This document shows positions 632 to 12,090 of a DNA stretch of 37,952 bases, in pieces. The notes beneath the pieces are model-generated. The model did not search any database. It was not told the DNA's origin and saw only the letters and a program-made list of their open reading frames with translations. A program made the position numbers and the translations under genes. Numbering within the stretch: position 1 is the stretch's first letter; every line of letters starts with the position of its first letter. Origin of the DNA: Propionivibrio sp. (GTDB lineage Bacteria > Pseudomonadota > Gammaproteobacteria > Burkholderiales > Rhodocyclaceae); the NCBI RefSeq assembly GCF_029255185.1, contig NZ_JAPUVO010000063.1:1-37952 (forward strand). Reading direction: 5' to 3'.

Positions 632-2803
632 TCACAGAAAAACCTCGGCGCGCTTGAGCAGCTCCTCTAGCCCCGCTTCGTTTGGGTTGCGCGGTTTGCC
701 CGGGTGGATGATCGATACCTGGCAATTCTCGGCGGCTTCGACCAGTTGCGCGTAGGTGCCGGCGCTGACATCGGCGATATACGCTTGCTTGTTGCCATCG
801 TAGGCAAACATCTTGTTGTTGATCTGGGTGCATTCGTTGCAGGTCGAGCAGCGCGCTGTTTCTATGTAGGCTTCGTCGGGAGACCTTTCGGCTTCCTGCT
901 CTGCGGGCGTGGCAGTGGCTGGCGTCGCTGCTGCTGCCGTAGGCGCCACCGTGGCGGGTGGTGCAATGTGCTGAGCTGCGTCTTCCCAGGCTTTCTTTTC
1001 GCTCGCCAGCAATTTTTCCGCGTGCGAATTATGAATCCCACCGAGTTCTTGCAGACTGTTCCACATCGAGCGGCAACGGCGTGCCTCGCGGATCAGCTTT
1101 TCGTCGACGATGACTTTTTGCAGTCTGTTGTCAGGGTCGACCATCATCAGACAGGGCACACTATCGAGCTGTCCTCGGCCTTCCTGCGCCACGGTTTCTC
1201 CAACCGGCGTCAGGATAGCGTTCCAGTGCGTTCTCGGTACACAGGCAAAGTGTTTGCTGTAGCGCGAGTCGCAGGCGACGAAATCAATCAGGGTGAACGG
1301 GATCTGTTCCGAAACGGCCTGATTGCTTGCATCTTCATAGGCGAATCCGCACCGGGGCCAGTCAAGTTCGGCCTGCGGATTTTTCGCCAGGGAGAAGCGC
1401 GAAGCCCAGTCCCGACCGGCTGACGGGTCGAAGGTAAATGCCGGAAACACCCGTGATTCGAGCGCGGCTGCCCCGATCAGATAGGGCGACAGTCCGCCGG
1501 TGGTACTGGCTGCACCCGAGAAAACGCTGAACAGTGCCGGGCCTGAATAGTCGAGCCCGCTCTGGATCTGGGTGCGCAACTGGTACAGGCTTGAAGCGGG
1601 CGATTGCAGCACGAACACCGCGTTGATGCCGATGGTCATGCTGGCCAATTGTCTGCTGCGCAGGGCAAAGGCCAAGTGTCCATGGCCGAGCGGCGATTCC
1701 TCGATGACGTCATCGGTCTGAACCAGTATCTTGATCGGCAAATCGACCGCCAGAATCTCGTTCAACTGGCTCTGCTCTGCGCCGGTCAGCTTTCCGTAAT
1801 TGAGGCGCACCAGGTAATCGGGCAGGAGCGCCAGTTCCCCGGCATCCAGCCCGTTTTCGCCGAACGACTCGAACAGCGCATCGTGCTTGGCCTCGCTGTA
1901 TTCGCCCTTGATCTCCAACTCGGCCATGGCGATGGCCTTGGCCAGTTCGATTGCTTTGGGCAATCGCTCGCGATAGGCTTTGAGTGCGTCGCTGCAGGTA
2001 TCAAAAGCGAAGGAATAGGGCGCTTCAGCCTGGGCTGTTGTGGTCGGGAAAAACTTCTGGTTTTGCAGCACGGAAAGCAGGTTTTGCACACGCTGGCGCC
2101 GGCTCTCCGACAGATTTTTCTTGGGCGTCGATTTTATGAGAATGCGCGACATGGCTTCAAAATTGAAGCTGTCCATCGGACCGGTGCCGAACGATGCTCT
2201 CAGGTTTTCAGCGCTTTTGCCGGCATCCGAGTTGACGAAGTCGGCCTTGATGATATCGGAGAGCTTGAGCACCAGCCGGTTGATATCCTTGCCAAATTTT
2301 CTGGCACGCTGCGTCTGGGTGATTGCCCAGGCGTGGCTGAGCAAGTGGTAAGGCATCGACGCATCGCAATCGACCACGTCACCATCGATTTTCAGGTTGG
2401 CGCGGGCGCGGGACAGGCTGTCCGCAATCAGCTTGTCGTCTTTGCCGAGCACCGGTGCGGCCTGATCCCACAGCGCTGACAACAAACCACGATCCCCCTT
2501 GGCTACCCGCGTGCGAATTTCCTGCTCAAGGCGTAAGACATGTTTCCTGATCCGCTCACCATCGTCGCCCCGGGCAATTTTGTCGAGAATGGCGTCGATC
2601 AGGCCAGACAGGGATTCGACAAAGCCGCCGTCCGGTCGGTCACTGACCAGGACCAGAGGGAAGTCATAACGCAGGCGGGTGAGGTCGCGATAGTTCGAGA
2701 AGAGGGCGGGGCGCAGCTTGAGCCCGTCGACGGCCAGCAGGTGGGAACTTGCTCTCTTGCCGGTCAAATAAAAAGCAATGTGCGTTTGCAGATCAGCATC
2801 CAT
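632..2803 (-). CDS. Large Kor-associated protein with C-terminal single-cluster ferredoxin-like domain
   Basis: The 723-residue product is encoded 37 bases after korB in the same direction. I do not recognise the first ~380 residues. The middle (about residues 380-560) contains GLDYSGPALFSVFSGAAS and ALESRVFPAFTFDP, which vaguely recall stretches of multidomain pyruvate:ferredoxin oxidoreductases; this is tentative. After an Ala/Pro/Thr-rich linker (about 620-645) comes a domain with CSTCNEC near residue 659 and a fourth cysteine in ENCQVSIIHPGKP near 702. That spacing, CxxCxxC then C after about 37 residues, fits a single [4Fe-4S] ferredoxin, with the usual Pro after the last Cys replaced by Gln. 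No signal peptide is seen. The gene ends a run of five co-directional genes, so the protein is probably a subunit or built-in electron carrier of the 2-oxoacid oxidoreductase. That role is inferred from position and the Cys motif only. Confidence 0.75.
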   Translation of the reverse strand: MDADLQTHIAFYLTGKRASSHLLAVDGLKLRPALFSNYRDLTRLRYDFPLVLVSDRPDGGFVESLSGLIDAILDKIARGDDGERIRKHVLRLEQEIRTRVAKGDRGLLSALWDQAAPVLGKDDKLIADSLSRARANLKIDGDVVDCDASMPYHLLSHAWAITQTQRARKFGKDINRLVLKLSDIIKADFVNSDAGKSAENLRASFGTGPMDSFNFEAMSRILIKSTPKKNLSESRRQRVQNLLSVLQNQKFFPTTTAQAEAPYSFAFDTCSDALKAYRERLPKAIELAKAIAMAELEIKGEYSEAKHDALFESFGENGLDAGELALLPDYLVRLNYGKLTGAEQSQLNEILAVDLPIKILVQTDDVIEESPLGHGHLAFALRSRQLASMTIGINAVFVLQSPASSLYQLRTQIQSGLDYSGPALFSVFSGAASTTGGLSPYLIGAAALESRVFPAFTFDPSAGRDWASRFSLAKNPQAELDWPRCGFAYEDASNQAVSEQIPFTLIDFVACDSRYSKHFACVPRTHWNAILTPVGETVAQEGRGQLDSVPCLMMVDPDNRLQKVIVDEKLIREARRCRSMWNSLQELGGIHNSHAEKLLASEKKAWEDAAQHIAPPATVAPTAAAATPATATPAEQEAERSPDEAYIETARCSTCNECTQINNKMFAYDGNKQAYIADVSAGTYAQLVEAAENCQVSIIHPGKPRNPNEAGLEELLKRAEVFL

Positions 2804-2840
2804 AGGAGTCTAGTCGTCTCGATTAAGTCGTCAGGGTTGA

Positions 2841-3794
2841 TCAGACCGAGTACTTGTCGAGCTCGGCTTCAAAGCCTTTTCTCACCGTCTCGGTTGTGCG
2901 CAAGACACCGGTTTGCCGTGTTTCCTCATAGCGGGGTATTTCCCGATTTTGGTAGAGGATGCCGACGGGGATGATGTCTTCGTGGCCGGAAATTTCCCGC
3001 GCCCGGTTCATATCCATGGGGTCATGCACCAAATGATTTTTATAGACTTTGGCCAGACCAGGAGAGAGGTGCAATGCGTTCTCGTGGTGCAGCAACTGAA
3101 TCCTGTCCGGGTCCTGCATCCAGGGATCAAGCGACTTTGGCAACCACTCCGGGCAGCGTTGCAGGATGCGGACAAACGACAGTCCCTGATGGTGATACGC
3201 CGCCTTGACGATGTCGAAAAGACTTTCCGGGATCCAGTCGACGGCCTGCGCGACGAACGAGGCATTGGCCACGCCCAGCGTTATCGTCAAGGGATTCAAG
3301 GCGTCGAGATAACTTCCGCGCGGCGTGGTGTTGCTCTTGGTACCAATGGGCGAGGTCGGTGAGGCCTGTTTTTTGGTCAGACCGTAGATCTGATTGTCGT
3401 GCAGGAAAACGGTCAGGTTCATGTTGTAGCGAATGGCGTGGATCCAGTGCGCTGCGCCGATGCTGCAACAGTCGCCATCACCGGTGTTGACGAACACGGT
3501 CAGGTCCGGCCTGACCATCTTGATGCCTTCGGCGACCGGTAGCGCCCGTCCATGGATGCCGTGGAAACCATAGGTCTTCATGTAATGGGGGAAACGGCTT
3601 GAGCAGCCGATGCCTGAGACGAATACGGTTTTCTCCGGGCGCAATCCCTCGTCACGGCACAGGCGCTGGACGGCGGCGAGGATGGCGTTATCGCCGCAAC
3701 CGGTGCACCAGCGCGGGACGCCGCTCTGGTAGTCTTCCAGTCCATGTTGCTCGTCGTACAACTTGAGCAGGCAGTCGGTGGCAGAAGATTTCAT
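2841..3794 (-). CDS. korB: 2-oxoacid:acceptor oxidoreductase beta subunit (KorB-type)
   Basis: This is the thiamine-diphosphate-binding beta subunit (317 aa) of a CoA-dependent 2-oxoacid oxidoreductase, which decarboxylates a 2-oxoacid to the acyl-CoA and passes two electrons onward. The TPP/Mg motif is clear: GDGD at 105-108 followed by DNQIYGLTKKQ at 133-143. Cysteines at 30 and 33 (WCTGCGD), 64 (GIGCSSR) and 214 (LQRCPEW) match the four ligands of the single [4Fe-4S] cluster in two-subunit enzymes of this family. The subunit has no fused ferredoxin domain. Length is normal for the family. It starts 13 bases after the korA stop, so the two genes are surely co-transcribed. 2-Oxoglutarate is the likely substrate by analogy to KorAB of Azoarcus; pyruvate or another 2-oxoacid cannot be excluded from sequence. 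Confidence 0.92.
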   Translation of the reverse strand: MKSSATDCLLKLYDEQHGLEDYQSGVPRWCTGCGDNAILAAVQRLCRDEGLRPEKTVFVSGIGCSSRFPHYMKTYGFHGIHGRALPVAEGIKMVRPDLTVFVNTGDGDCCSIGAAHWIHAIRYNMNLTVFLHDNQIYGLTKKQASPTSPIGTKSNTTPRGSYLDALNPLTITLGVANASFVAQAVDWIPESLFDIVKAAYHHQGLSFVRILQRCPEWLPKSLDPWMQDPDRIQLLHHENALHLSPGLAKVYKNHLVHDPMDMNRAREISGHEDIIPVGILYQNREIPRYEETRQTGVLRTTETVRKGFEAELDKYSV

Positions 3795-3807
3795 GGTTTT
3801 CTTTCCC

Positions 3808-5685
3808 TTACTTCTTTAGCTTGGCAAGTGCGATGCGGCGGATGGTGCTCGGCTTGACCGGCTGGCCCCTGACCTCGCTCCAGCAATCCACATCAACCAG
3901 GTAACGCGAGCGGAGCAGGATCGCCAGAGAGGAATAGCGACGGTTGGCTTCGTCGATGATTTCTTCATCGGGGTTGTCGCTCCAGTTGATTTCTATGGTC
4001 ATGACTTTCTTGAAGCGCTGCATGATCTCCTTGATCCCGGGCTGCATCGGCTGCAGGAAGCGCAGGTTGATAGCGGACACTTTCTCGCCCTCGGCGCGCA
4101 GGGCATCGACGGCTTCATCGATGGCGCCTTTGGTGCTGCCCCAGCCGATGAGCAGAAGATCGCCCTTGGCCTCGCCATGGACCTCGGGGGCGGTCAGTGT
4201 CTTTTGCAAGGCAGCGAGTTTCAGGCTGCGCGCGCGCAAGCTCTCCTGGTTGATGTCCGGGTCGTAGGCGACATGGCTGTCCCGGTCATGGGCGAGCCCG
4301 GTCACGGTGTGCATGCCGCCAGGCTGACCGGGAATGAAACGGCGGGCCAGGCCGGTGGTGGCATCCCAGTCGTAAGGTCTGGCGCCTTCTGGAACCGGGC
4401 TTTGATCAATTGGAGGGGCCAGCCACGACTCGTTGAACTGCGGTCGGTTAAAGGGTTGCTGCGAAGAAGACAGGCTGGCATCGCTTAATACGACCACGAC
4501 CATATTGAAGGCTTCGGCGATCTTGCGTGCGGTGATGATCGAGTAAAAGCAGTCCTCGATGGTGGCTGGAGCCATGACCACCTTGGGTGCATCGCCATGG
4601 CTGCCAAAGATGGCGCACATCAGGTCGCCCTGCTCGATTTTGGTCGGCTGGCCGGTGCTCGGCCCGCCGCGCTGGACGTTAACGACGACCAGTGGGATTT
4701 CGGCCATCACCGCCAGGCCGATGGCTTCCTGTTTGAGCGAATAGCCCGGTCCGGAGGTGATGGTGATCGTGCATTTGCTGGCATAAGAGGCGCCGATGGC
4801 AAAAGCGCAGGCAGCGATTTCGTCTTCGGCCTGGTGCACGATGCCGCCGACTTTCTCGAAAACATCGGACAGATAGTGCGATGCCGAGGTGGCGGGGGTG
4901 ATCGGATACATCGAGCACAGCTCCATGCCTGACGCCATGACGCCGAGCGCCAGCGCGGTATTGCCGTTGGTGACGATCTGCGGCTGCTGGGTCGGCGTTG
5001 CCGGAATGCTGAAGCTAAAATCAAGATTGGCGACGGCCCATTTATGGCCGGCTTCGAGCAGCTTGACATTGGCATCGATGACGCTCTGTGCCTTTTTGCC
5101 GAAGGTGAGCGCAATCTGCTCGCGCGCCATCTGCAAATCGAAGCTGTAGATGTAACAAAGCATACCCAGGGCGAACATGTTCTTGCCGCGTTTCGGATCC
5201 GCGTTGAGCAACTGGCATTCCTGTTCCATCGGCGTTTCGCGCACGTTGTACCCGGCAGCCACCAGCCGGTCGTAGGTTTCGCTGTAGGCCGTTGAAATAT
5301 TCAGGTCGGGGTGCTTGCGCCACATGCTTTCGAGAATGATGATGCACCCCGGCTTGAGTTCGCGATCGCGAACCCGTCCGAGCAAAACCTGTTCGTTGAA
5401 CGCCACCACCAGATCGGTCTGGTCGCCGCCATTGGTGATGTAGCTGGAACCGATGCGAATTCGATTGCCGCTGGCACCGGCGACGCTGCGTGCGGGCGGA
5501 CGAATTTCGGCCGGGATGATCTCGGTGGTCCAGATGCCGTTGCCCATCCGGGCGGCAATCGATCCGAGCGATTGCCCGCAGCGCTGAGCGCCTTCGCCGG
5601 AGTCGCTGATGATTTCGACGATGTGTTCCTTCAAGGTAAGGGTCGCGCTTTTGCCAGATTTTTTCATGGGGTTTTTTGCGGTCAT
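3808..5685 (-). CDS. korA: 2-oxoacid:acceptor oxidoreductase gamma-alpha fusion subunit (KorA-type)
   Basis: The 625-residue product fuses the gamma domain (about residues 20-220) to the alpha/pyrimidine-binding domain (about 240-620), the arrangement of two-subunit 2-oxoglutarate oxidoreductases. YPITP at 260-264 is the family's hallmark next to the substrate and CoA site, and RGGPSTGQPT at 339-348 is the second typical motif. The C-terminal part (SAINLRFLQPM, then residues that bind the partner subunit) is complete. The ATG at 5685 has GGAAAG about 8 bases upstream; a second Met at residue 7 is possible. The gene sits 64 bases after the NfnB-like gene and 13 before korB. Together KorA and KorB should form the catalytic core that oxidises a 2-oxoacid with CoA. 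The acceptor is probably not a soluble ferredoxin alone, given the flavoprotein genes upstream. Confidence 0.92.
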   Translation of the reverse strand: MTAKNPMKKSGKSATLTLKEHIVEIISDSGEGAQRCGQSLGSIAARMGNGIWTTEIIPAEIRPPARSVAGASGNRIRIGSSYITNGGDQTDLVVAFNEQVLLGRVRDRELKPGCIIILESMWRKHPDLNISTAYSETYDRLVAAGYNVRETPMEQECQLLNADPKRGKNMFALGMLCYIYSFDLQMAREQIALTFGKKAQSVIDANVKLLEAGHKWAVANLDFSFSIPATPTQQPQIVTNGNTALALGVMASGMELCSMYPITPATSASHYLSDVFEKVGGIVHQAEDEIAACAFAIGASYASKCTITITSGPGYSLKQEAIGLAVMAEIPLVVVNVQRGGPSTGQPTKIEQGDLMCAIFGSHGDAPKVVMAPATIEDCFYSIITARKIAEAFNMVVVVLSDASLSSSQQPFNRPQFNESWLAPPIDQSPVPEGARPYDWDATTGLARRFIPGQPGGMHTVTGLAHDRDSHVAYDPDINQESLRARSLKLAALQKTLTAPEVHGEAKGDLLLIGWGSTKGAIDEAVDALRAEGEKVSAINLRFLQPMQPGIKEIMQRFKKVMTIEINWSDNPDEEIIDEANRRYSSLAILLRSRYLVDVDCWSEVRGQPVKPSTIRRIALAKLKK

Positions 5686-5749
5686 ATCAGGCTTTCCATT
5701 GTCGCTGTGAAGCGTGGGTGACTGTATTCAATACCTGGTGTTTTGCCAG

Positions 5750-7243
5750 TCAAGCCACACGCACACGGGTAAAGTTCCGTTCGCGCAGATCGATGCCGAA
5801 CAGCTTTTCCCCGTCGTTGGCATAGGGCAGGGTGCTGTCGCGAATTCCGAGATAGGCCTTCATGCTGGCGGCGGCCTTGCGTCCGGCGCCCATCGCTTCG
5901 ATCACCGTTGCCGCACCGGTAACGATGTCGCCGCCAGCGAATACCCCGGCCAAGGAGGTGGCCAGACTGAGGTCGGTATCGATGTAACCCCATTTGTTGA
6001 GTCTGAGCTTTGAGGTCTGCCCCATGATCGGATTGGCATTGGTGCCGATGGCATAAACGATCAGGTCGCATTCGAAGTCGAATTCGCTGCCGACTACCGG
6101 AACCGGGCGGCGGCGACCGGACTCGTCCGGCTCACCGAGTTCCATGCGCACGCAACGCAGGCCGCGGACGCTCCCTTTGCCATCGTCCAGAACCGCCACC
6201 GGATTGGTCAGCCAGTTGAATTCGACACCTTCCTGTTCGGCATGATGCACCTCCTCGACCCGCGCCGGCGCCTCTTTGCGCGAACGCCGGTAGATGCAAT
6301 AGACCTTTTCCGCACCCAGTCTGACCGAGACGCGCATCGCATCCATCGCCGTGTTGCCGGCGCCAACCACCGCAACCCGTTTGCCAATCGGCTGCGGCGT
6401 GTCAAAGTTCGGGAATTCCTTGGCGCGCATCAGATTGCAGCGAGTCAGCAACTCGTTGGCCGAGAGCACACCATTAAGGGAGTCACCGGGAATCCCTAGC
6501 ATCGTCGGATAGCCGGCGCCAACGCCAACAAAGACCGAGTCATAACCCATTTCGGTAATCATCTGTTCGATGGTGAACAGTCGGCCGACCAGGGTATTGC
6601 ATTCGAACTTGACGCCGAGTTTCCTCAGATTGCCGATTTCGGCGTCGATCACCGAATTGGGCAGACGGAAATCGGGAATCCCGTACTTCAAAACGCCGCC
6701 CGGCTGATGGAAGGCTTCGAACACGGTAACGTCGCAACCGGCTTTGGCCATGTCGGCCGCACAGGCCATTCCTGCCGGGCCAGAGCCGATAATGCCGACC
6801 TTGTAGTTGTTCGTTTCGATATACGGAATATTGACCCAGCCCTCGCGGATGGCCGTGTCACCGACAAAGCGTTCCAGCCGGCCAATGGCCACTGCCTCAA
6901 GCGATTCACCGACGGTGCACACGCCTTCGCACTGGTTCTCCTGCGGACAGACGCGGCCGCAGATGGCCGGCAAGAGGCTCGTTGCAGTCAGGATGTCATA
7001 GGCGCCGCGCAGATCCTTCTCGCCAATTTTCTTGATGAAACCGGGGATGTTGATTCCCACCGGGCAACCCGAGACACACGGCTGGTCCGGACACATCAGG
7101 CAGCGATCTGATTCACGCAAGGCATCGTCCGGATGATAACCACAGGCGACTTCTTCAAAATTTTTCGAGCGCACTGCCGGGTCCTGCTCGCGCATCGGTG
7201 TGCGTTCTTGGGGAATGGTCCGAATCGTCTTTTTCTTGGCCAT
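5750..7243 (-). CDS. GltD/NfnB-like FAD-NAD(P) oxidoreductase with two [4Fe-4S] sites
   Basis: The 497-residue product belongs to the glutamate-synthase small-subunit family (GltD, NfnB/SudA). The N-terminal iron-sulfur domain has C48, C51, C56 and C60 (CLMCPDQPCVSGCP) and C95, C99, C105 and C109 (CGRVCPQENQCEGVC). An FAD-binding GSGPAG lies at 153-158 with the family's PGGVLKYGIP at 181-190, and a second nucleotide-binding AVVGAGNTAM lies at 291-300, normally for NADPH. No glutamate synthase large subunit is nearby. The preceding gene is its NfnA-like partner, 22 bases upstream, so this is better read as the large subunit of an NfnAB-like pair than as GltD. Downstream come korA and korB. I infer that the pair links electrons from KorAB to NAD(P). 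Confidence 0.88.
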   Translation of the reverse strand: MAKKKTIRTIPQERTPMREQDPAVRSKNFEEVACGYHPDDALRESDRCLMCPDQPCVSGCPVGINIPGFIKKIGEKDLRGAYDILTATSLLPAICGRVCPQENQCEGVCTVGESLEAVAIGRLERFVGDTAIREGWVNIPYIETNNYKVGIIGSGPAGMACAADMAKAGCDVTVFEAFHQPGGVLKYGIPDFRLPNSVIDAEIGNLRKLGVKFECNTLVGRLFTIEQMITEMGYDSVFVGVGAGYPTMLGIPGDSLNGVLSANELLTRCNLMRAKEFPNFDTPQPIGKRVAVVGAGNTAMDAMRVSVRLGAEKVYCIYRRSRKEAPARVEEVHHAEQEGVEFNWLTNPVAVLDDGKGSVRGLRCVRMELGEPDESGRRRPVPVVGSEFDFECDLIVYAIGTNANPIMGQTSKLRLNKWGYIDTDLSLATSLAGVFAGGDIVTGAATVIEAMGAGRKAAASMKAYLGIRDSTLPYANDGEKLFGIDLRERNFTRVRVA

Positions 7244-7265
7244 GTTTTTTTACCGTTGAGCGTTG

Positions 7266-8147
7266 TTAATCAATCGTGCTATCGACGGCTTTCTGCAAGC
7301 GACAACCCTTTTCCTTGTCCTTTTCCCAGTGGTCGAGCGCCATGCGTTCTTCCTTGGTGTAGCGCTTCAAGCGCGTCATCAGATCGTCGAAGTCAACCAG
7401 GTGACCATCAAAATCTGGCCCGTCGACGCAGGCGAATTTCACCTGATCGCCGATCTTGACCCGGCAACCGCCACACATTCCGGTCCCGTCGACCATCACC
7501 GGGTTGAGGCTGACCATGGTCTTGATCTTGTAAGGGCGTGTCGTATCGGCACAGCCCTTCATCATGATCGGTGGGCCGATGGCGATGACCTCGTCGATGT
7601 CCGGGTGCTTTTCGATCGCCTGCAATATCCCTGCGGTGACCATCCCCTTGATTCCGGCAGAGCCGTCGTCGGTGCAGATGATGAACTCATCGCAGCAAGC
7701 CCTGAATTTCTTTTCCCAAAAGACCAGGTCCTTGTTGCGGAAGCCGACGATACCGATGACATAAGCGCCGCTTTCCTTGAATCCGCGCGCTTGGGGATAG
7801 ATCGGGGCGACACCCAGGCCGCCACCGACACACACCACTTTTTTTGCGTGGCTGATCGGACTGGGGATGCCCATCGGGCCAACCATGGCGTAAAGCGACG
7901 TTCCCACCTGGCACTCCTGCTGCATTTGCCGGGTGGTCTTGCCGATCGCCTGGATCACCAGGGTGATCGTTCCCTTCTCACGATCGAAGTCGGCAATCGT
8001 CAGTGGGATTCGCTCGCCGTGTTCACCGAGCATGACAATTACAAACTGCCCCGGCTTCGCCGCTTTGGCCATCAAAGGATGACGTACCTCAAGCAGATAG
8101 GTCAGGTCGGAAAAATCCTCGCGGGTGATGATCTCAAAATTGGACAT
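7266..8147 (-). CDS. NfnA/PyrK-like FAD and [2Fe-2S] ferredoxin-NAD(P) reductase subunit
   Basis: With the ATG at 8147 the product has 293 residues; a TTG six codons earlier is possible. It is a ferredoxin-NADP-reductase-fold protein of the PyrK/NfnA group. A flavin-binding ERIPLTIAD lies at 45-53, a pyridine-nucleotide-binding CVGGGLGVAPIYP at 106-118, and a C-terminal cluster site at D220, C225, C228 and C240 (DGTGMCGGCRV...C). The Asp plus three Cys pattern is the one known for the [2Fe-2S] cluster of NfnA, the small subunit of NADH-dependent ferredoxin:NADP+ oxidoreductase. The family is also called the sulfide dehydrogenase alpha subunit. It heads the five-gene minus-strand run and its partner follows after 22 bases. 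No pyrD is nearby, which argues against a PyrK role. Confidence 0.87.
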   Translation of the reverse strand: MSNFEIITREDFSDLTYLLEVRHPLMAKAAKPGQFVIVMLGEHGERIPLTIADFDREKGTITLVIQAIGKTTRQMQQECQVGTSLYAMVGPMGIPSPISHAKKVVCVGGGLGVAPIYPQARGFKESGAYVIGIVGFRNKDLVFWEKKFRACCDEFIICTDDGSAGIKGMVTAGILQAIEKHPDIDEVIAIGPPIMMKGCADTTRPYKIKTMVSLNPVMVDGTGMCGGCRVKIGDQVKFACVDGPDFDGHLVDFDDLMTRLKRYTKEERMALDHWEKDKEKGCRLQKAVDSTID

Positions 8148-8209
8148 TTTGCTTGCTTTCAACAAAGGTCAATTTCCGGTGAGTCAGCTTATGGCGCCAG
8201 CAGCTTCAA

Positions 8210-8220
8210 GATGGTCCATC
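8210..8220. promoter_or_regulatory. Short dyad upstream of the kor/nfn run
   Basis: GATGG-T-CCATC is a perfect 11-bp dyad about 63 bases upstream of the NfnA-like start codon. On the minus strand the flanks read TTTGATGGACCATCTTGA, which only partly resembles an FNR/CRP-type site (TTGAT then ATCAA, here with a 5-base gap and mismatches). It might be an operator of the cluster, but so short a palindrome can occur by chance. Confidence 0.18.
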
Positions 8221-8288
8221 AAACAGGGTGTGCTTGGCAAGCGATATCGATTCACAGTGTTAGCGCAAAATAGCAATGTCCGCCGGTG

Positions 8289-9671
8289 CTACAGTGCTAT
8301 TGGGAGTACCCTCACTTTCCCGGACTTCAGGAACTTGTTGATGATGCGGTAGATGTCCGGATCGAAGCGCTCATCACTGTGCTTATCCAGAAGGTCATGC
8401 AGCGCCGCCTCGTCATGTACTGTACCCAGGTAGCGCCAGCAATCGAACAGATGGTAATCCTCGCGCATCCCGAACTCGTCGCGTTCAATCAAGGCCACCG
8501 GCCCGGCGAAAGGCCAGCCGCTGAGCTTGAACTTGGCCAGTGCCGTCATCAGGCGGGCGCTGTGCAGCGCTACCGCCTCCTTGCCGACACAAACACCGCG
8601 ACATGTTTTCTGCCTGAAGGCAACGCAGGCTTCCCCCGCTTTTGCTGCGCCAAGCCCGACCTGGTTATGGCACAGGCGGTGCACATCGGCGAGCTTGCGC
8701 AGGGCATGAATGGCCTCGCGCGAGTTCATGTATAGACCAAAAAGATCAGGGGTGCGAGAAAAGTCAGTATCCCGGGCATGAACCAGTTGCGGGCGAAAAT
8801 CTCCGTCGCCATGCCGGATTAATTGCCAGGCGCAAAGATCGGTGGCGGGTTTGCGCGCGCAAGCCGATAATTCGAGTTCGTGCAGCCGTGCGCCCAGTTC
8901 GCCGGCAGCCTCGCGCCACTCGACACGCCAGACATTGCGCACCAGTGCCGTGTCGCGGTTGGCCAGCGAAAAATGCGCCAGTATCTGCTGGCGCAGATTG
9001 CTGCTGCGCTTGGCGAGCAGCAGGTTGCCATCCTCAGCGTACATGGCGTAGGCTCCGGGCGCTTCCGGCAGATCGTCGATCAGTGCCGAATCGATTTGTT
9101 CTGGCAACTGTGGCCGTCCGACGATTGCATCGATTGCCTTGCGCACCGTCTCGACCGGCAACAACTCGTGCCAACGCTGCCATAGGCTCCATAGCACCTG
9201 GGCATCGGCCAGCGCGCGGTGGCGATCGCCCGCCGTGATGGAATAACGTGTGAGCAGGGCATCGAGGCTGTGGCGGTGATGTTCGGGAAACAGTCTGCGT
9301 GAGAGCTTGACGGTGCACAAGTTCGGCGCCCGAAAATCGATTCCCAGGCGCTTGAATTCGCGTTTAAGGAAGGTGTAATCGAAGCGGGCGTTGTGGGCGA
9401 TAAAAAGTCGGCCGCGCAGTTTCTCAAGAACCAGGGGCGCAAGTTGCTTGAAACTGGGGGCCGAGGAAACCATTACCGTATTGATTCCGGTCAGCCCGGT
9501 TATGAAATCTGAAACAGTCCCTCCAGGGTTGACCAGAGACGACCACTCACGAACGCCATGCTGATCAACCTCGACGAAACCGATTTCGATGATTCGATCG
9601 TTCGCAAAATTTGCGCCTGTAGTCTCCAGATCGACAAAAATCAGGGGGTCATGCGCCAAAAGTGGTGTCAT
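8289..9671 (-). CDS. DEDDh 3'-5' exonuclease fused to a UvrC/Cho-like GIY-YIG domain
   Basis: The product has 460 residues. The N-terminal ~170 residues form a DnaQ-like proofreading-type exonuclease: DLETTG (residues 14-19), AHNARFDYTF (about 92-101) and HRALADAQ (about 151-158) supply the DEDDh acidic and His residues. Residues ~203-280 resemble the GIY-YIG nuclease domain of UvrC and Cho: PGAYAMY, then NLRQQILAHF and a downstream HELELSACARKP with the conserved Glu. The second half of the signature, usually Y-V/I-G-K-S, is LLAKRS here, so the nuclease site looks degenerate. The C-terminal part (about 300-460) resembles the Cho/UvrC-associated tail (ACVAFRQKTCRGVC, FDPDIYRIINKFL). Such fusions are common in beta- and gammaproteobacteria and are presumed to act in DNA repair. 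The ATG at 9671 is preferred over a TTG one codon earlier. Confidence 0.82.
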   Translation of the reverse strand: MTPLLAHDPLIFVDLETTGANFANDRIIEIGFVEVDQHGVREWSSLVNPGGTVSDFITGLTGINTVMVSSAPSFKQLAPLVLEKLRGRLFIAHNARFDYTFLKREFKRLGIDFRAPNLCTVKLSRRLFPEHHRHSLDALLTRYSITAGDRHRALADAQVLWSLWQRWHELLPVETVRKAIDAIVGRPQLPEQIDSALIDDLPEAPGAYAMYAEDGNLLLAKRSSNLRQQILAHFSLANRDTALVRNVWRVEWREAAGELGARLHELELSACARKPATDLCAWQLIRHGDGDFRPQLVHARDTDFSRTPDLFGLYMNSREAIHALRKLADVHRLCHNQVGLGAAKAGEACVAFRQKTCRGVCVGKEAVALHSARLMTALAKFKLSGWPFAGPVALIERDEFGMREDYHLFDCWRYLGTVHDEAALHDLLDKHSDERFDPDIYRIINKFLKSGKVRVLPIAL

Positions 9672-9939
9672 CAATGCAGAGGTGTCTAAAGTTGATTTCT
9701 GGAAAACTGTTGCGAACAGGAGGAATCGCCCGCAGGATTCTCGCAGAATTACTTCACGCCACTAGAAAATATTTCGATTCAGCGAGCCGCCGTTACGTGA
9801 TCACACTTACGGCCGGCGTGGCAAAATCGGTTCTTGATATGAGTGCTGGCGCACAGACCGTACTGGTATCGAAGCTGATGCTGCGGGGATGATGGTGTTC
9901 CAATGCCGGCCTCATTGAACGGCTCCAAAGCGCGCACCT

Positions 9940-12090
9940 ATGAAAGACATTGCCATGCATAGACTATCCTTCTGCTCAAAGCTCTCGATCTTACTGGCCG
10001 GAATCGCAGCACTCGCACTAAGCGGCTGGGCCGCAGCAGAGCCACCTTTTCGTGCGGCACGCTTAAGCTATACGAGTGGCACTGTGAGTTTCTTGCCTGC
10101 GGGCCAATCCGATTGGGTACAGGCTATTGTCAACCGGCCACTGACCACTGGCGACGGCTTATGGGCTGACGCAAACTCGCGTGCCGAATTTCAAGTCGGG
10201 GGCGCGGCGATCCGCTTGGGTTCGGTTACCAGCGTGACTTTGTTGAATCTTGACAACCACATCGCGCAGATGCAGCTCTCACAAGGCACGCTGAAAGTGA
10301 GAGTGCGCCACGTAGGACCTAACCAAACCTTTGAAGTGGATACGCCCAATCTCGCATTTACGCTAAACCGCCCTGGTGAATACCGCATCGATGTGGCCCC
10401 AGTCGGTGACGCTACGGTCGTCATGGTGCAGAACGGGCAGGCTGAAGTGCATGCTGAAGGGACGTCGTATACGATTGATTCGAAACAAGGATATCGCTTC
10501 CACGGCCAAGGATTGTCCGACTCCGCTCTCGCAGCCTGGCACGACGACGATCTAGATCGCTGGGCGCTTGAGCGCGACCGGCGAGGCGACAACTCCACCT
10601 CCGCGCAATATGTTTCCTCCGATGTGATCGGCTATGAAGACCTTGATTCCAATGGGAACTGGCGTGCCGATCCGAACTACGGCAACGTGTGGACGCCGAC
10701 TCGCGTGGCAGCCGGCTGGACTCCCTATCGTGACGGTCATTGGGTCTGGGTCGATCCGTGGGGTTGGACTTGGGTAGATGACGCCCCTTGGGGCTTTGCC
10801 GTATCGCATTACGGCCGTTGGGCCAATATCCGGGGGGCTTGGGGCTGGGTTCCGGGACCGCCACGCGAGCAGGCGGTGTATGCGCCAGCGCTGGTTGCGT
10901 TTGTCGGCGGCAAGGCTTTTCATAAGGGCTCGCTGCCTATCAGAAACACCATCGGAGCTGTCATTGGCTGGTTCCCGCTTGCGCCACGCGAGGTCTACCG
11001 GCCCTCCTATCCGGTAAGCCGCAGCTATTTTGACAACATCAACCGTAGCAACGCCGTGATTGCCCCAACGACCATCAACAAGGTCTACAACACTACCATC
11101 GTTCAAAAAACACAGATCAATGTAAGCAAAATGGTTTATGTCAACCAGCAAGTGGCCGGAGCCGTGATCGCCGTGCCAGTTCAAGCGTTTGTGCAATCGC
11201 AACCCGTGGCCAAAGCAGCTATGCCGGTATCGAAAGAAACGGCCGCCAGTGCGCCTGTGGAGAATGTCGGCGTCGTGGCACCGGTTCAACACAGTGTGCA
11301 CGGTGGCGCCCCCGCAGTCGGTGCCAAGCCTCCGACCCATGAACGAGCCGTTGTCGTCCACACCTCCCCACCACCGCCGTCAGTCGCCTTTGCCATTCAG
11401 CAGCAACTGGCTGCTAAGCCCGGCTTGCCGATTGACGAAGTGCAACGTAAGAAATTAAAGCCTGCTACTGCACCGATACCGAAGGTGAGTGTGGTGACCT
11501 CTAGCCAAGCGCTGGCACCAAGCGCTCTGCCACCCGTAACACCCCCGGCCGCCAAATCACCCGAGGCGTGGAAAGCCGAAGCAGGAAAAGCAGATACAGC
11601 CAAAATCGAGGCTGCCAGGGGTGCTGCTACAAAAACGGACGCAGCGAAGGTCGATGCAGGCAAGATAGAAGCAGAAAAAGCCGCGACAGTAAAAAACAAA
11701 GCATTGCGAGTTGAGGAGGTGAAAGCCGACGCAGTTAAAGCCGATGCTGCAAAATCAGAGGCAGCTAAGGCCGAGGCAATGCGAGCAGAGACCGCAAAAA
11801 CTGAAGCCGCAAAGGCAGCGACAGCAAAAGCCGAAATAGCCAAGGCTCAGGCCGCTAAAGCTGAAGCAATCAAAGCTGAGTCGGTGAAAGCGGAAATAGC
11901 CAAGGCCAAGGCCGCGACTGCAAAAGCGGAAGCCTCACGGGCCGATGCTTTGAAGGCTGAATCGCTCAAAGCCAACGCCGCCAAGGCGGCGATAGCAAAA
12001 GCCGAAGCAGTACGGATCGAGGCGGTAAAAGCGGAAGAGGAGAAGAAAAAAGCTGAGGAAGCACGAAAGCACAAGCCTGGTGCCGGTTAA
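9940..12090 (+). CDS. Secreted FecR-domain/DUF6600 protein with long Ala/Lys-rich tail
   Basis: The 716-residue product starts with a Sec signal peptide (a hydrophobic stretch about residues 14-30 ending GWAAAEPP). Residues ~40-190 resemble the FecR domain, a beta-rich ligand- or sensor-type module (LTTGDGLWADANSRAEFQVG, LSQGTLKVRVR, NRPGEYRIDV, VVMVQNGQAEV). Residues ~235-330 are a Trp-rich segment typical of DUF6600 (GHWVWVDPWGWTWVDDAPWG, GRWANIRGAWGWVPGP). A Pro/Ala linker follows. Residues ~545-712 are a low-complexity helical tract of AKAEA-like repeats similar to the TolA stalk. The protein is presumably periplasmic or surface-attached. No sigma factor gene or TonB receptor is nearby, so FecR-type sigma regulation is not suggested. 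Starts at 9940 and 9955 are both possible; neither has a strong ribosome site. Confidence 0.8.
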   Translation: MKDIAMHRLSFCSKLSILLAGIAALALSGWAAAEPPFRAARLSYTSGTVSFLPAGQSDWVQAIVNRPLTTGDGLWADANSRAEFQVGGAAIRLGSVTSVTLLNLDNHIAQMQLSQGTLKVRVRHVGPNQTFEVDTPNLAFTLNRPGEYRIDVAPVGDATVVMVQNGQAEVHAEGTSYTIDSKQGYRFHGQGLSDSALAAWHDDDLDRWALERDRRGDNSTSAQYVSSDVIGYEDLDSNGNWRADPNYGNVWTPTRVAAGWTPYRDGHWVWVDPWGWTWVDDAPWGFAVSHYGRWANIRGAWGWVPGPPREQAVYAPALVAFVGGKAFHKGSLPIRNTIGAVIGWFPLAPREVYRPSYPVSRSYFDNINRSNAVIAPTTINKVYNTTIVQKTQINVSKMVYVNQQVAGAVIAVPVQAFVQSQPVAKAAMPVSKETAASAPVENVGVVAPVQHSVHGGAPAVGAKPPTHERAVVVHTSPPPPSVAFAIQQQLAAKPGLPIDEVQRKKLKPATAPIPKVSVVTSSQALAPSALPPVTPPAAKSPEAWKAEAGKADTAKIEAARGAATKTDAAKVDAGKIEAEKAATVKNKALRVEEVKADAVKADAAKSEAAKAEAMRAETAKTEAAKAATAKAEIAKAQAAKAEAIKAESVKAEIAKAKAATAKAEASRADALKAESLKANAAKAAIAKAEAVRIEAVKAEEEKKKAEEARKHKPGAG
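11572..12075 (+). repeat. AKAEA-type low-complexity coding repeat
   Basis: The 3' quarter of the FecR/DUF6600 gene encodes about 168 residues made of degenerate 3- to 6-residue units such as KAEAAKAEA, KAESVKAEI and KADAAKSEA. DNA-level repeats are imperfect, with synonymous changes between units, so the array is old or selected at protein level rather than recently amplified. It should form one long charged helix, as in TolA domain II, able to span the periplasm. Confidence 0.75.

Follow-up and report, generated by a model that had tools for sequence, protein, structure and literature searches.

A conserved five-gene cluster in Propionivibrio sp. combining KorAB- and NfnAB-like subunits with a PFOR-derived, ferredoxin-tailed large subunit

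We analysed a gene cluster in Propionivibrio sp. (family Rhodocyclaceae) located on contig NZ_JAPUVO010000063.1 of assembly GCF_029255185.1; the window is the whole stretch of 37,952 nucleotides. The open reading frame (ORF) listing contains five minus-strand ORFs head to tail at 632-8147, which encode NfnA, NfnB, KorA, KorB and a large subunit (LSU), in this order. From NfnA to LSU the intergenic gaps are 22, 64, 13 and 37 bases, in agreement with the first-pass annotation of this DNA, which had described five co-directional minus-strand genes with gaps of 13-64 bases. The NfnA-like protein (7266-8147; 293 aa; NF004862) starts with an ATG at 8147, with an alternative in-frame TTG at 8165, and belongs to the class of DHODB-type Fe-S proteins with an FAD/NAD(H) module; its [2Fe-2S] site comprises D220, C225, C228 and C240. 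The NfnB-like protein (5750-7243; 497 aa; TIGR01316) is a Fer4_20/GltD-type flavoprotein with FAD, an NADP(H) site and two [4Fe-4S] clusters. KorA (3808-5685; 625 aa) was classified by Pfam and TIGR03710 as a fusion of the gamma part (POR) with the alpha part (POR_N, PFOR_II). KorB (2841-3794; 317 aa), identified by Pfam (TPP_enzyme_C) and, below cut-off, by TIGR02177, is the catalytic thiamine pyrophosphate (TPP) subunit with one [4Fe-4S] cluster (C30, C33, C64, C214). Based on motif counts and predicted fold the LSU (632-2803; 723 aa) is a non-catalytic subunit derived from pyruvate:ferredoxin oxidoreductase (PFOR) with a tethered ferredoxin. It comprises a degenerate PFOR domain VI-like core without TPP motif and internal clusters (residues 50-589; 1037-2656), an Ala/Pro-rich disordered linker (residues 614-640; 884-964) and a ferredoxin tail with a single [4Fe-4S] cluster (C652, C655, C658, C694; residues 643-723; 635-877).

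The first-pass annotation had called the LSU a novel large subunit, and indeed no NCBIfam model matches it; a new fold can be ruled out, though, as the predicted-structure search identified the model as PFOR domain VI. A profile of the LSU family detected Desulfovibrio ferredoxin I in the PDB at 5.2e-06, and apart from one meaningless match at E 0.66 the PDB matches covered the ferredoxin tail only. The relationship to PFOR emerged from the predicted structure and from the sequences of giant PFORs (~1,650 aa), to whose C-terminal half, tethered ferredoxin included, the LSU is homologous. We counted the cofactor motifs in 44 LSU rows (43 distinct sequences, L007 being equal to L008) and, as a positive control, in 36 intact giants (35 distinct, L059 being equal to L088). 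The TPP motif, the proximal cluster and the two domain-V clusters were each observed in 0 of 44 LSU rows, whereas the giants showed the proximal motifs in 31 and 34 cases and the domain-V motifs in 33 and 34. The CxxCxxC of the tail was present in 43 of the 44 LSU rows. The LSU derives from the C-terminal half of PFOR: the TPP motif and the internal clusters were lost and the C-terminal [4Fe-4S] ferredoxin was kept. It looks like a catalytically dead version of a related enzyme, with its ferredoxin borne on a flexible tether.

That the 723-residue protein ends in a ferredoxin-like tail was already proposed in the first pass and is borne out by the profile match as well as by Fer4_13, which aligned to residues 648-700 with 24.3 bits, slightly below the Pfam cut-off of 24.5. 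In the predicted LSU model the tail superimposes on Desulfovibrio africanus ferredoxin I (1fxr_A) with a TM score of 0.80 on the target and an rmsd of 1.5. Linker residues 614-640 have a predicted local confidence (pLDDT) below 50 in the single-chain structure. The Ala+Pro fraction of the linker exceeded that of the body in 43 of the 43 LSUs measured (mean 0.42 compared to 0.17; L048 was left out of the linker measures), and the median length from the core to the first Cys was 69 residues. When 31 Nfn-type, 2 basal and 9 Rnf-type LSUs and 32 giants were compared with the window, conservation was higher in the tail than in the body in each of the 74 cases. In genome G213 (L038) the LSU carries three tandem ferredoxin tails that are 76-97% identical and separated by Ala/Pro linkers. 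No anti-phage model matched the LSU. The conserved tail ligands are consistent with the earlier suggestion that this built-in domain could replace a soluble ferredoxin. The lack of a free ferredoxin gene in the window, which was noted at the same time, says little for a 38-kb stretch, and no search of the genome for such a gene was made.

For the two flavoproteins we compared the matches to solved structures. NfnA, which scored 384 bits against NF004862 (cut-off 220), reached 326 bits against the small subunit of the bifurcating P. furiosus NfnI (5jca_S), 242 against T. maritima, 175 against NfnII and ~73 against PyrK. NfnB reached 560 bits against T. maritima Nfn (4ylf_B), 489 against P. furiosus NfnI, 459 against NfnII and 302 against GltD. 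The four [2Fe-2S] ligands of NfnA were invariant in 23 of 23 rows, eight Cys together with E102 and E106 of NfnB in 25 of 25 rows, and the NADPH and FAD motifs were found in 24 of 24 NfnB. Separate subunits, the Asp-Cys3 [2Fe-2S] site, the [4Fe-4S] ligands and the greater similarity to Nfn than to GltD or PyrK correspond to NfnAB of pattern A (T. maritima 4YLF/4YRY, P. furiosus NfnI 5JCA), with which the cluster shares both subunits, the ligands and the nucleotide motifs. The NfnAB-like genes are thus of the true Nfn kind, as first annotated. Six further cysteines of NfnB (161, 170, 215, 269, 316, 364) were also invariant in 25 of 25 rows; at five of these positions T. maritima has no Cys in the alignment.

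The best solved match of KorA was the 2-oxoglutarate:ferredoxin oxidoreductase of Magnetococcus (6n2n_A, 264.5 bits), and TIGR03710 was matched with 504.6 bits (cut-off 482.75). The fused POR and POR_N, PFOR_II and TPP_enzyme_C all scored above their Pfam cut-offs in KorAB. The four [4Fe-4S] Cys of KorB and the GDG of its TPP motif were invariant in 39 of 39 rows; the N-x-x-YG pattern was missed in 2 of 38, both of which read HDNHVYG.

In order to find out how the five genes are distributed, we scored the gene content of other loci by tblastn. The check for the same order in other genomes, suggested in the first pass, succeeded in 24 of the 24 uncut loci besides the window: all five genes lie on one strand in the same order, with 4-407 bases between aligned ends, the LSU being 42-79% and each of the remaining four proteins 67-94% identical. 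A chance association is excluded by these 24 loci. The LSU clade containing the window has 32 members, of which the 24 loci and the window carry all five genes; at the remaining 7 (L007, L012, L014, L015, L016, L017, L101/L124) the contig stops within the cluster. Across 150 genomes of the family a full-length LSU, a KorA of at least 72% and an NfnB of at least 73% identity were detected in an identical set of five genomes (E ≤1e-80 for KorA and ≤1e-140 for NfnB, neither search starting from the LSU). Some LSU match was obtained in 38 of the 150; beyond the five full-length cases these were partial and lay almost always in giant ORFs. One family genome (G484) has an NfnB at 55% identity within an 816-residue ORF elsewhere, and G509, from the genus of the window, is without LSU, close KorA and close NfnB and carries a conventional KorA at 36%. 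The LSU was found at E ≤1e-150 in 4 of 300 genomes of the order, including that of the window. Among 349 genomes of the phylum a stand-alone LSU at E ≤1e-40 occurred only in the window, and the other 9 matches were ORFs of 1,651-1,698 residues. Given these counts, the five-gene unit is rare, patchy and passed on as a block, which supports the first-pass interpretation as far as a single unit is concerned. Pairwise distances of the five proteins correlated at 0.73-0.92 (25 sets); the LSU evolves fastest, with a mean identity of 0.58 compared to 0.79-0.83. From the same family, 8 loci with a conventional KorAB gave no match to NfnAB or LSU within the 11-12 kb fetched. A scan of GTDB contigs with the LSU returned 24 named loci; by title 11 of these belong to Propionivibrio, Accumulibacter or Rhodoferax and one to Gemmatimonadetes.

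From 33 other genomes with a match we took 12 stand-alone LSUs beside other genes and 6 further places. We left out a plain PFOR fragment (L054) and short loci that duplicate the same genes (L026-L030, L033-L035, L055-L058, L091-L094), and the giants L070 and L081 were left out of the tree. A locus titled Selenomonadales has an LSU sequence identical to that of a Propionivibrio locus from a metagenome-assembled genome (MAG; L007 and L008), and its bin is probably mislabelled or contaminated. In the single-contig genome G034 (L048) KorA and LSU are each split across more than one frame, through decay of the copy or sequencing error.

In 12 loci (L025, L037, L039-L048) an RnfB-like gene directly follows the LSU. 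KorAB precedes the LSU in 11 of them (the contig of L045 ends beyond the LSU), and NfnAB was found in none of the 12 within the stretch fetched. The independent variation of NfnAB and korAB, which the first-pass annotation had named as a point against a joint complex, is thus seen in the wider KorAB-LSU family but not inside the clade of the window. A second giant lies beyond RnfB, as the next gene in most of these loci and ~4 kb away in L025; sucCD occurs in four of them (L041, L043, L047, L048) and FrdA- and NuoF-like genes in several. In the second giants of 10 loci (L025, L037, L039-L044, L047, L048) both domain-V clusters were kept and the ferredoxin tail was missing in 10 of 10, and the TPP motif was mostly lost, with GDG in 1 of 10 (L025) and NT in 0 of 10. 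These losses complement those of the LSU, and the two dead PFOR derivatives may share an electron path to Rnf. In 5 of the 6 loci examined, a PFOR giant with the same tail is flanked by rnfB and rnfC, and a paper on the Solemya velum symbiont places PFOR genes between rnfB2 and rnfC2 (PMC4287430).

In the LSU tree the LSU sequences make up a monophyletic group (support 0.999) that contains the 32 NfnAB-type LSUs as a single clade (0.999), with the RnfB-bearing L025 and L037 grouping just outside this clade. In a FastTree phylogeny KorA from LSU-linked loci is likewise a clade of its own, separate from the family's conventional KorA. The simplest history would be that the LSU joined KorAB beside Rnf and that NfnAB replaced the module of RnfB and giant once, a direction which we infer, as both trees are midpoint-rooted. 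The core of KorAB and LSU probably predates its link to NfnAB. Of 10 genomes, 6 had RnfC above cut-off, that of the window among them, and G213, G527, G615 and G778 did not (the ten include G509, which is without the cluster). No mutual exclusion of Rnf and the Nfn-type cluster was seen per genome; the Nfn form is present in genomes with Rnf as well as in genomes that lack it. The Gemmatimonadetes-labelled locus L025:4883-9915 contains two KorAB sets, one of which fuses KorB with a gamma-less KorA in a 708-residue ORF (6795-8921), and upstream on the other strand there are NuoEF/HoxU/HoxY-like genes, of which NuoF was recognised by a match and the rest by eye.

The genes on either side do not belong to the system. 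The downstream ORF at 90-542 had no match in any of 24 loci searched for it. The ORF at 8289-9674, which immediately precedes NfnA and shares its strand, encodes a DnaQ-type exonuclease with a Cho-like nuclease region; it gave a single partial match of 51% (L014), away from NfnA. Among seven further ORFs of the window that were checked, one had no match; the others are housekeeping genes, namely those for homoserine dehydrogenase, DAHP synthase and an aminotransferase as well as pepN, typA and mfd. The 716-residue ORF at 9940-12090 has a long repetitive C-terminus rich in Ala, Lys and Glu. We discarded an FNR box before NfnA, as the window contains 13 sites with at most 2 mismatches compared to 12.0 expected, and promoter and terminator scans returned fewer sites than in shuffled sequence.

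Building on gene order, co-inheritance, the loss and retention of motifs, the predicted fold and the kinship to Rnf-linked PFORs, we think it reasonably likely that the five proteins assemble into a single soluble 2-oxoglutarate:NAD(P)+ oxidoreductase with a tethered ferredoxin on the LSU and NfnAB as acceptor. The physical complex, the function of the tether, the substrate, the direction and any bifurcation are what we infer from the genes and from single-chain folds. KorAB would use TPP to turn 2-oxoglutarate and CoA into succinyl-CoA and CO2, with the electrons moving on to its only [4Fe-4S] cluster; this is the chemistry of the family, of which the motifs are observed here. The LSU would dock to KorAB via its dead PFOR domain VI-like core, and the ferredoxin domain on the flexible Ala/Pro-rich linker would swing from the cluster of KorB to the [4Fe-4S] entry of NfnB and back, which would make a soluble ferredoxin unnecessary. 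NfnAB would then reduce NADP+ and/or NAD+. A confurcation with NADH is possible: 2-oxoglutarate + CoA + NADH + 2 NADP+ -> succinyl-CoA + CO2 + NAD+ + 2 NADPH. With in-vivo potentials of about -520 mV for 2-oxoglutarate, -370 mV for NADP and -280 mV for NAD, we estimate that making two NADPH in this way would be downhill by ~10 kJ/mol and the reverse uphill. Our best reading is that Rnf or Nfn serves as a swappable acceptor module of the KorAB-LSU core.

Several observations weigh against this proposal. The NCBIfam model of NfnB, TIGR01316 (574 bits, cut-off 471.75), is that of an NADPH-dependent glutamate synthase. KorB scored 247.6 bits against the pyruvate/2-ketoisovalerate subfamily TIGR02177, below the cut-off of 261.9, and its nearest solved structures are the 2-oxoacid enzymes of Sulfolobus (5b48_B with 184.9 and 5b46_B with 182.7 bits), ahead of Magnetococcus 6n2n_B (167.2). 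The match of the tail to 1fxr_A reaches only E 0.064 in the fold search with the whole model, and the Ala+Pro content of the linker spans 0.15-0.70 among the 43 LSUs. The reach of the tail to NfnB and the interaction of the five proteins are assumed, the predicted folds being those of single chains. The distance correlations stand without an unlinked-gene control, and the 24 named loci from the GTDB contig scan are all MAGs. As most loci were found by LSU searches, the linkage of LSU and KorAB is biased, and the count in the 150 family genomes is the fairer test. Finally, 2-oxoglutarate dehydrogenase E1 (TIGR00239) was present in 7 of the 9 cluster genomes tested, and the other two, G420 and G473 from the genus of the window, each carry a second KOR alpha (34% and 32%), which rules out the cluster as the sole KOR where the dehydrogenase is missing. 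With the dehydrogenase kept in most genomes and a second KOR alpha in the others, both the need for the cluster and its substrate are uncertain.

A stricter version, put forward in the first pass and held by us only tentatively, is a substrate-fed bifurcating complex, in which the oxidation of 2-oxoglutarate is obligately coupled to simultaneous turnover of NAD(H) and NADP(H), possibly reversed for reductive carboxylation. It would fit the invariant [2Fe-2S] and [4Fe-4S] ligands, the nucleotide motifs in all NfnB, and an NfnA far nearer to NfnI than to NfnII (326 compared to 175 bits), where NfnII is described as non-bifurcating (PMC7483475). However, NfnB barely separates the two (489 and 459 bits), and a review states that bifurcating and non-bifurcating Nfn are indistinguishable from sequence alone (PMC6405883). 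Bifurcation by the NfnAB of the cluster is possible but unproven, and the delivery of electrons at two potentials, suggested in the first pass, likewise stays a proposal. The potentials given above favour oxidation as well, the reverse being uphill.

It is unlikely, in our judgement, that the genes encode separate, co-expressed enzymes, with KorAB reducing free ferredoxin, NfnAB acting as an ordinary transhydrogenase and the LSU stabilising or regulating KorAB. NfnAB and two-subunit KorAB are each known to function alone elsewhere, and the interface between the five proteins is hypothetical. Moreover, the same review places nfn genes within different redox gene clusters depending on the microbe, and a legend lists PFOR as one of the neighbouring genes (PMC6405883). 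Yet the LSU contains a ferredoxin with conserved ligands on a flexible linker, no uncut locus of the clade is missing any of the five genes, and the 8 conventional KorAB loci of the family are devoid of NfnAB and LSU matches in their 11-12 kb.

Returning to the single oxidoreductase, its identification with 2-oxoglutarate has indirect support, since sister clusters carry sucCD and E1 is patchily missing. E1 was absent in G420 and G473 (2 of 9 cluster genomes; counting G509, which also has it, E1 was present in 8 of the 10 genomes tested). Of the 11 Rnf-type genomes 7 had E1 above cut-off, G102, G219 and G319 were without it and G336 gave a 25-bit match only. Another 2-oxoacid such as pyruvate or a branched-chain acid is quite improbable as substrate: these families do not reveal it with certainty, KorB best fits TIGR02177 and the Sulfolobus enzymes, and 7 of 9 cluster genomes retain the dehydrogenase, but among solved structures KorA comes closest to a 2-oxoglutarate enzyme (6n2n), four sister clusters carry sucCD, and E1 was not found, or was below cut-off only, in 6 KorAB-LSU genomes. 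A second KOR cluster was observed near the Nfn-type one at L020:12757-17482 and L016:10090-12569; that of L020 has a single GltD-like subunit whose best model, PRK12771, is below cut-off, an arrangement also reported for KorABC.

For the single complex an architectural analogy suggests itself, as the LSU tether resembles the lipoyl arms of E2 in 2-oxoacid dehydrogenases. KorAB might correspond to E1, the LSU to an E2 with ferredoxin swinging arms in place of lipoyl domains, and NfnAB to E3, with bifurcation possible; in relatives the same arm would plug into RnfB, and a dead enzyme half would hence have become a general electron adaptor. We would put this extended reading somewhat below an even chance. 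Some E2s have three lipoyl domains, which may be compared to the three tandem ferredoxins in G213.

Compared to known NfnAB, the cluster fixes Nfn in one operon with KorAB and LSU, and the LSU tail probably replaces the soluble ferredoxin. The fused gamma-alpha KorA and the TPP/[4Fe-4S] KorB are shared with Magnetococcus 6N2N and with the conventional KorAB of Rhodocyclaceae; the 8 conventional KorA of the family, however, are 33-36% identical to that of the window and travel without LSU or NfnAB. The KorABC of Azoarcus evansii and the NAD+-linked PadEFGHI reportedly combine a 2-oxoacid oxidoreductase core with their own FAD subunit that reduces NAD(P)+. KorC is said to be one GltD-like subunit, with KorABC reducing NADP+, whereas the window has the full NfnAB pair with two FAD subunits and the LSU. 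The Rnf-linked PFOR giants (rnfB-PFOR-rnfC) retain the TPP motif and the internal clusters, which the LSU, adjoining KorAB, has lost. AadN of Rhodopseudomonas palustris (PMC9973337) is an Nfn homologue that supplies low-potential electron metabolism and is required for aromatic degradation; it is a single fused protein, unlike the separate NfnA and NfnB of the cluster, and the table given there for ten R. palustris strains never has it alongside korAB. For Endoriftia dimeric korAB and 'PFOR-like' isoforms are described (PMC11636981). Among the titles and abstract beginnings listed from an open-licence library, none describes the five-gene unit or the LSU; subscription papers lay outside this search.

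If the proposal is correct, the low-potential electrons from the tricarboxylic acid cycle step from 2-oxoglutarate to succinyl-CoA would use a tethered rather than a diffusible ferredoxin on their way to the Rnf ion pump or to Nfn, and the LSU would be an example of a dead enzyme half recruited for electron transfer. It would also bear on whether a substrate oxidase can feed Nfn inside a complex, and it could help to account for some of these bacteria being without 2-oxoglutarate dehydrogenase.

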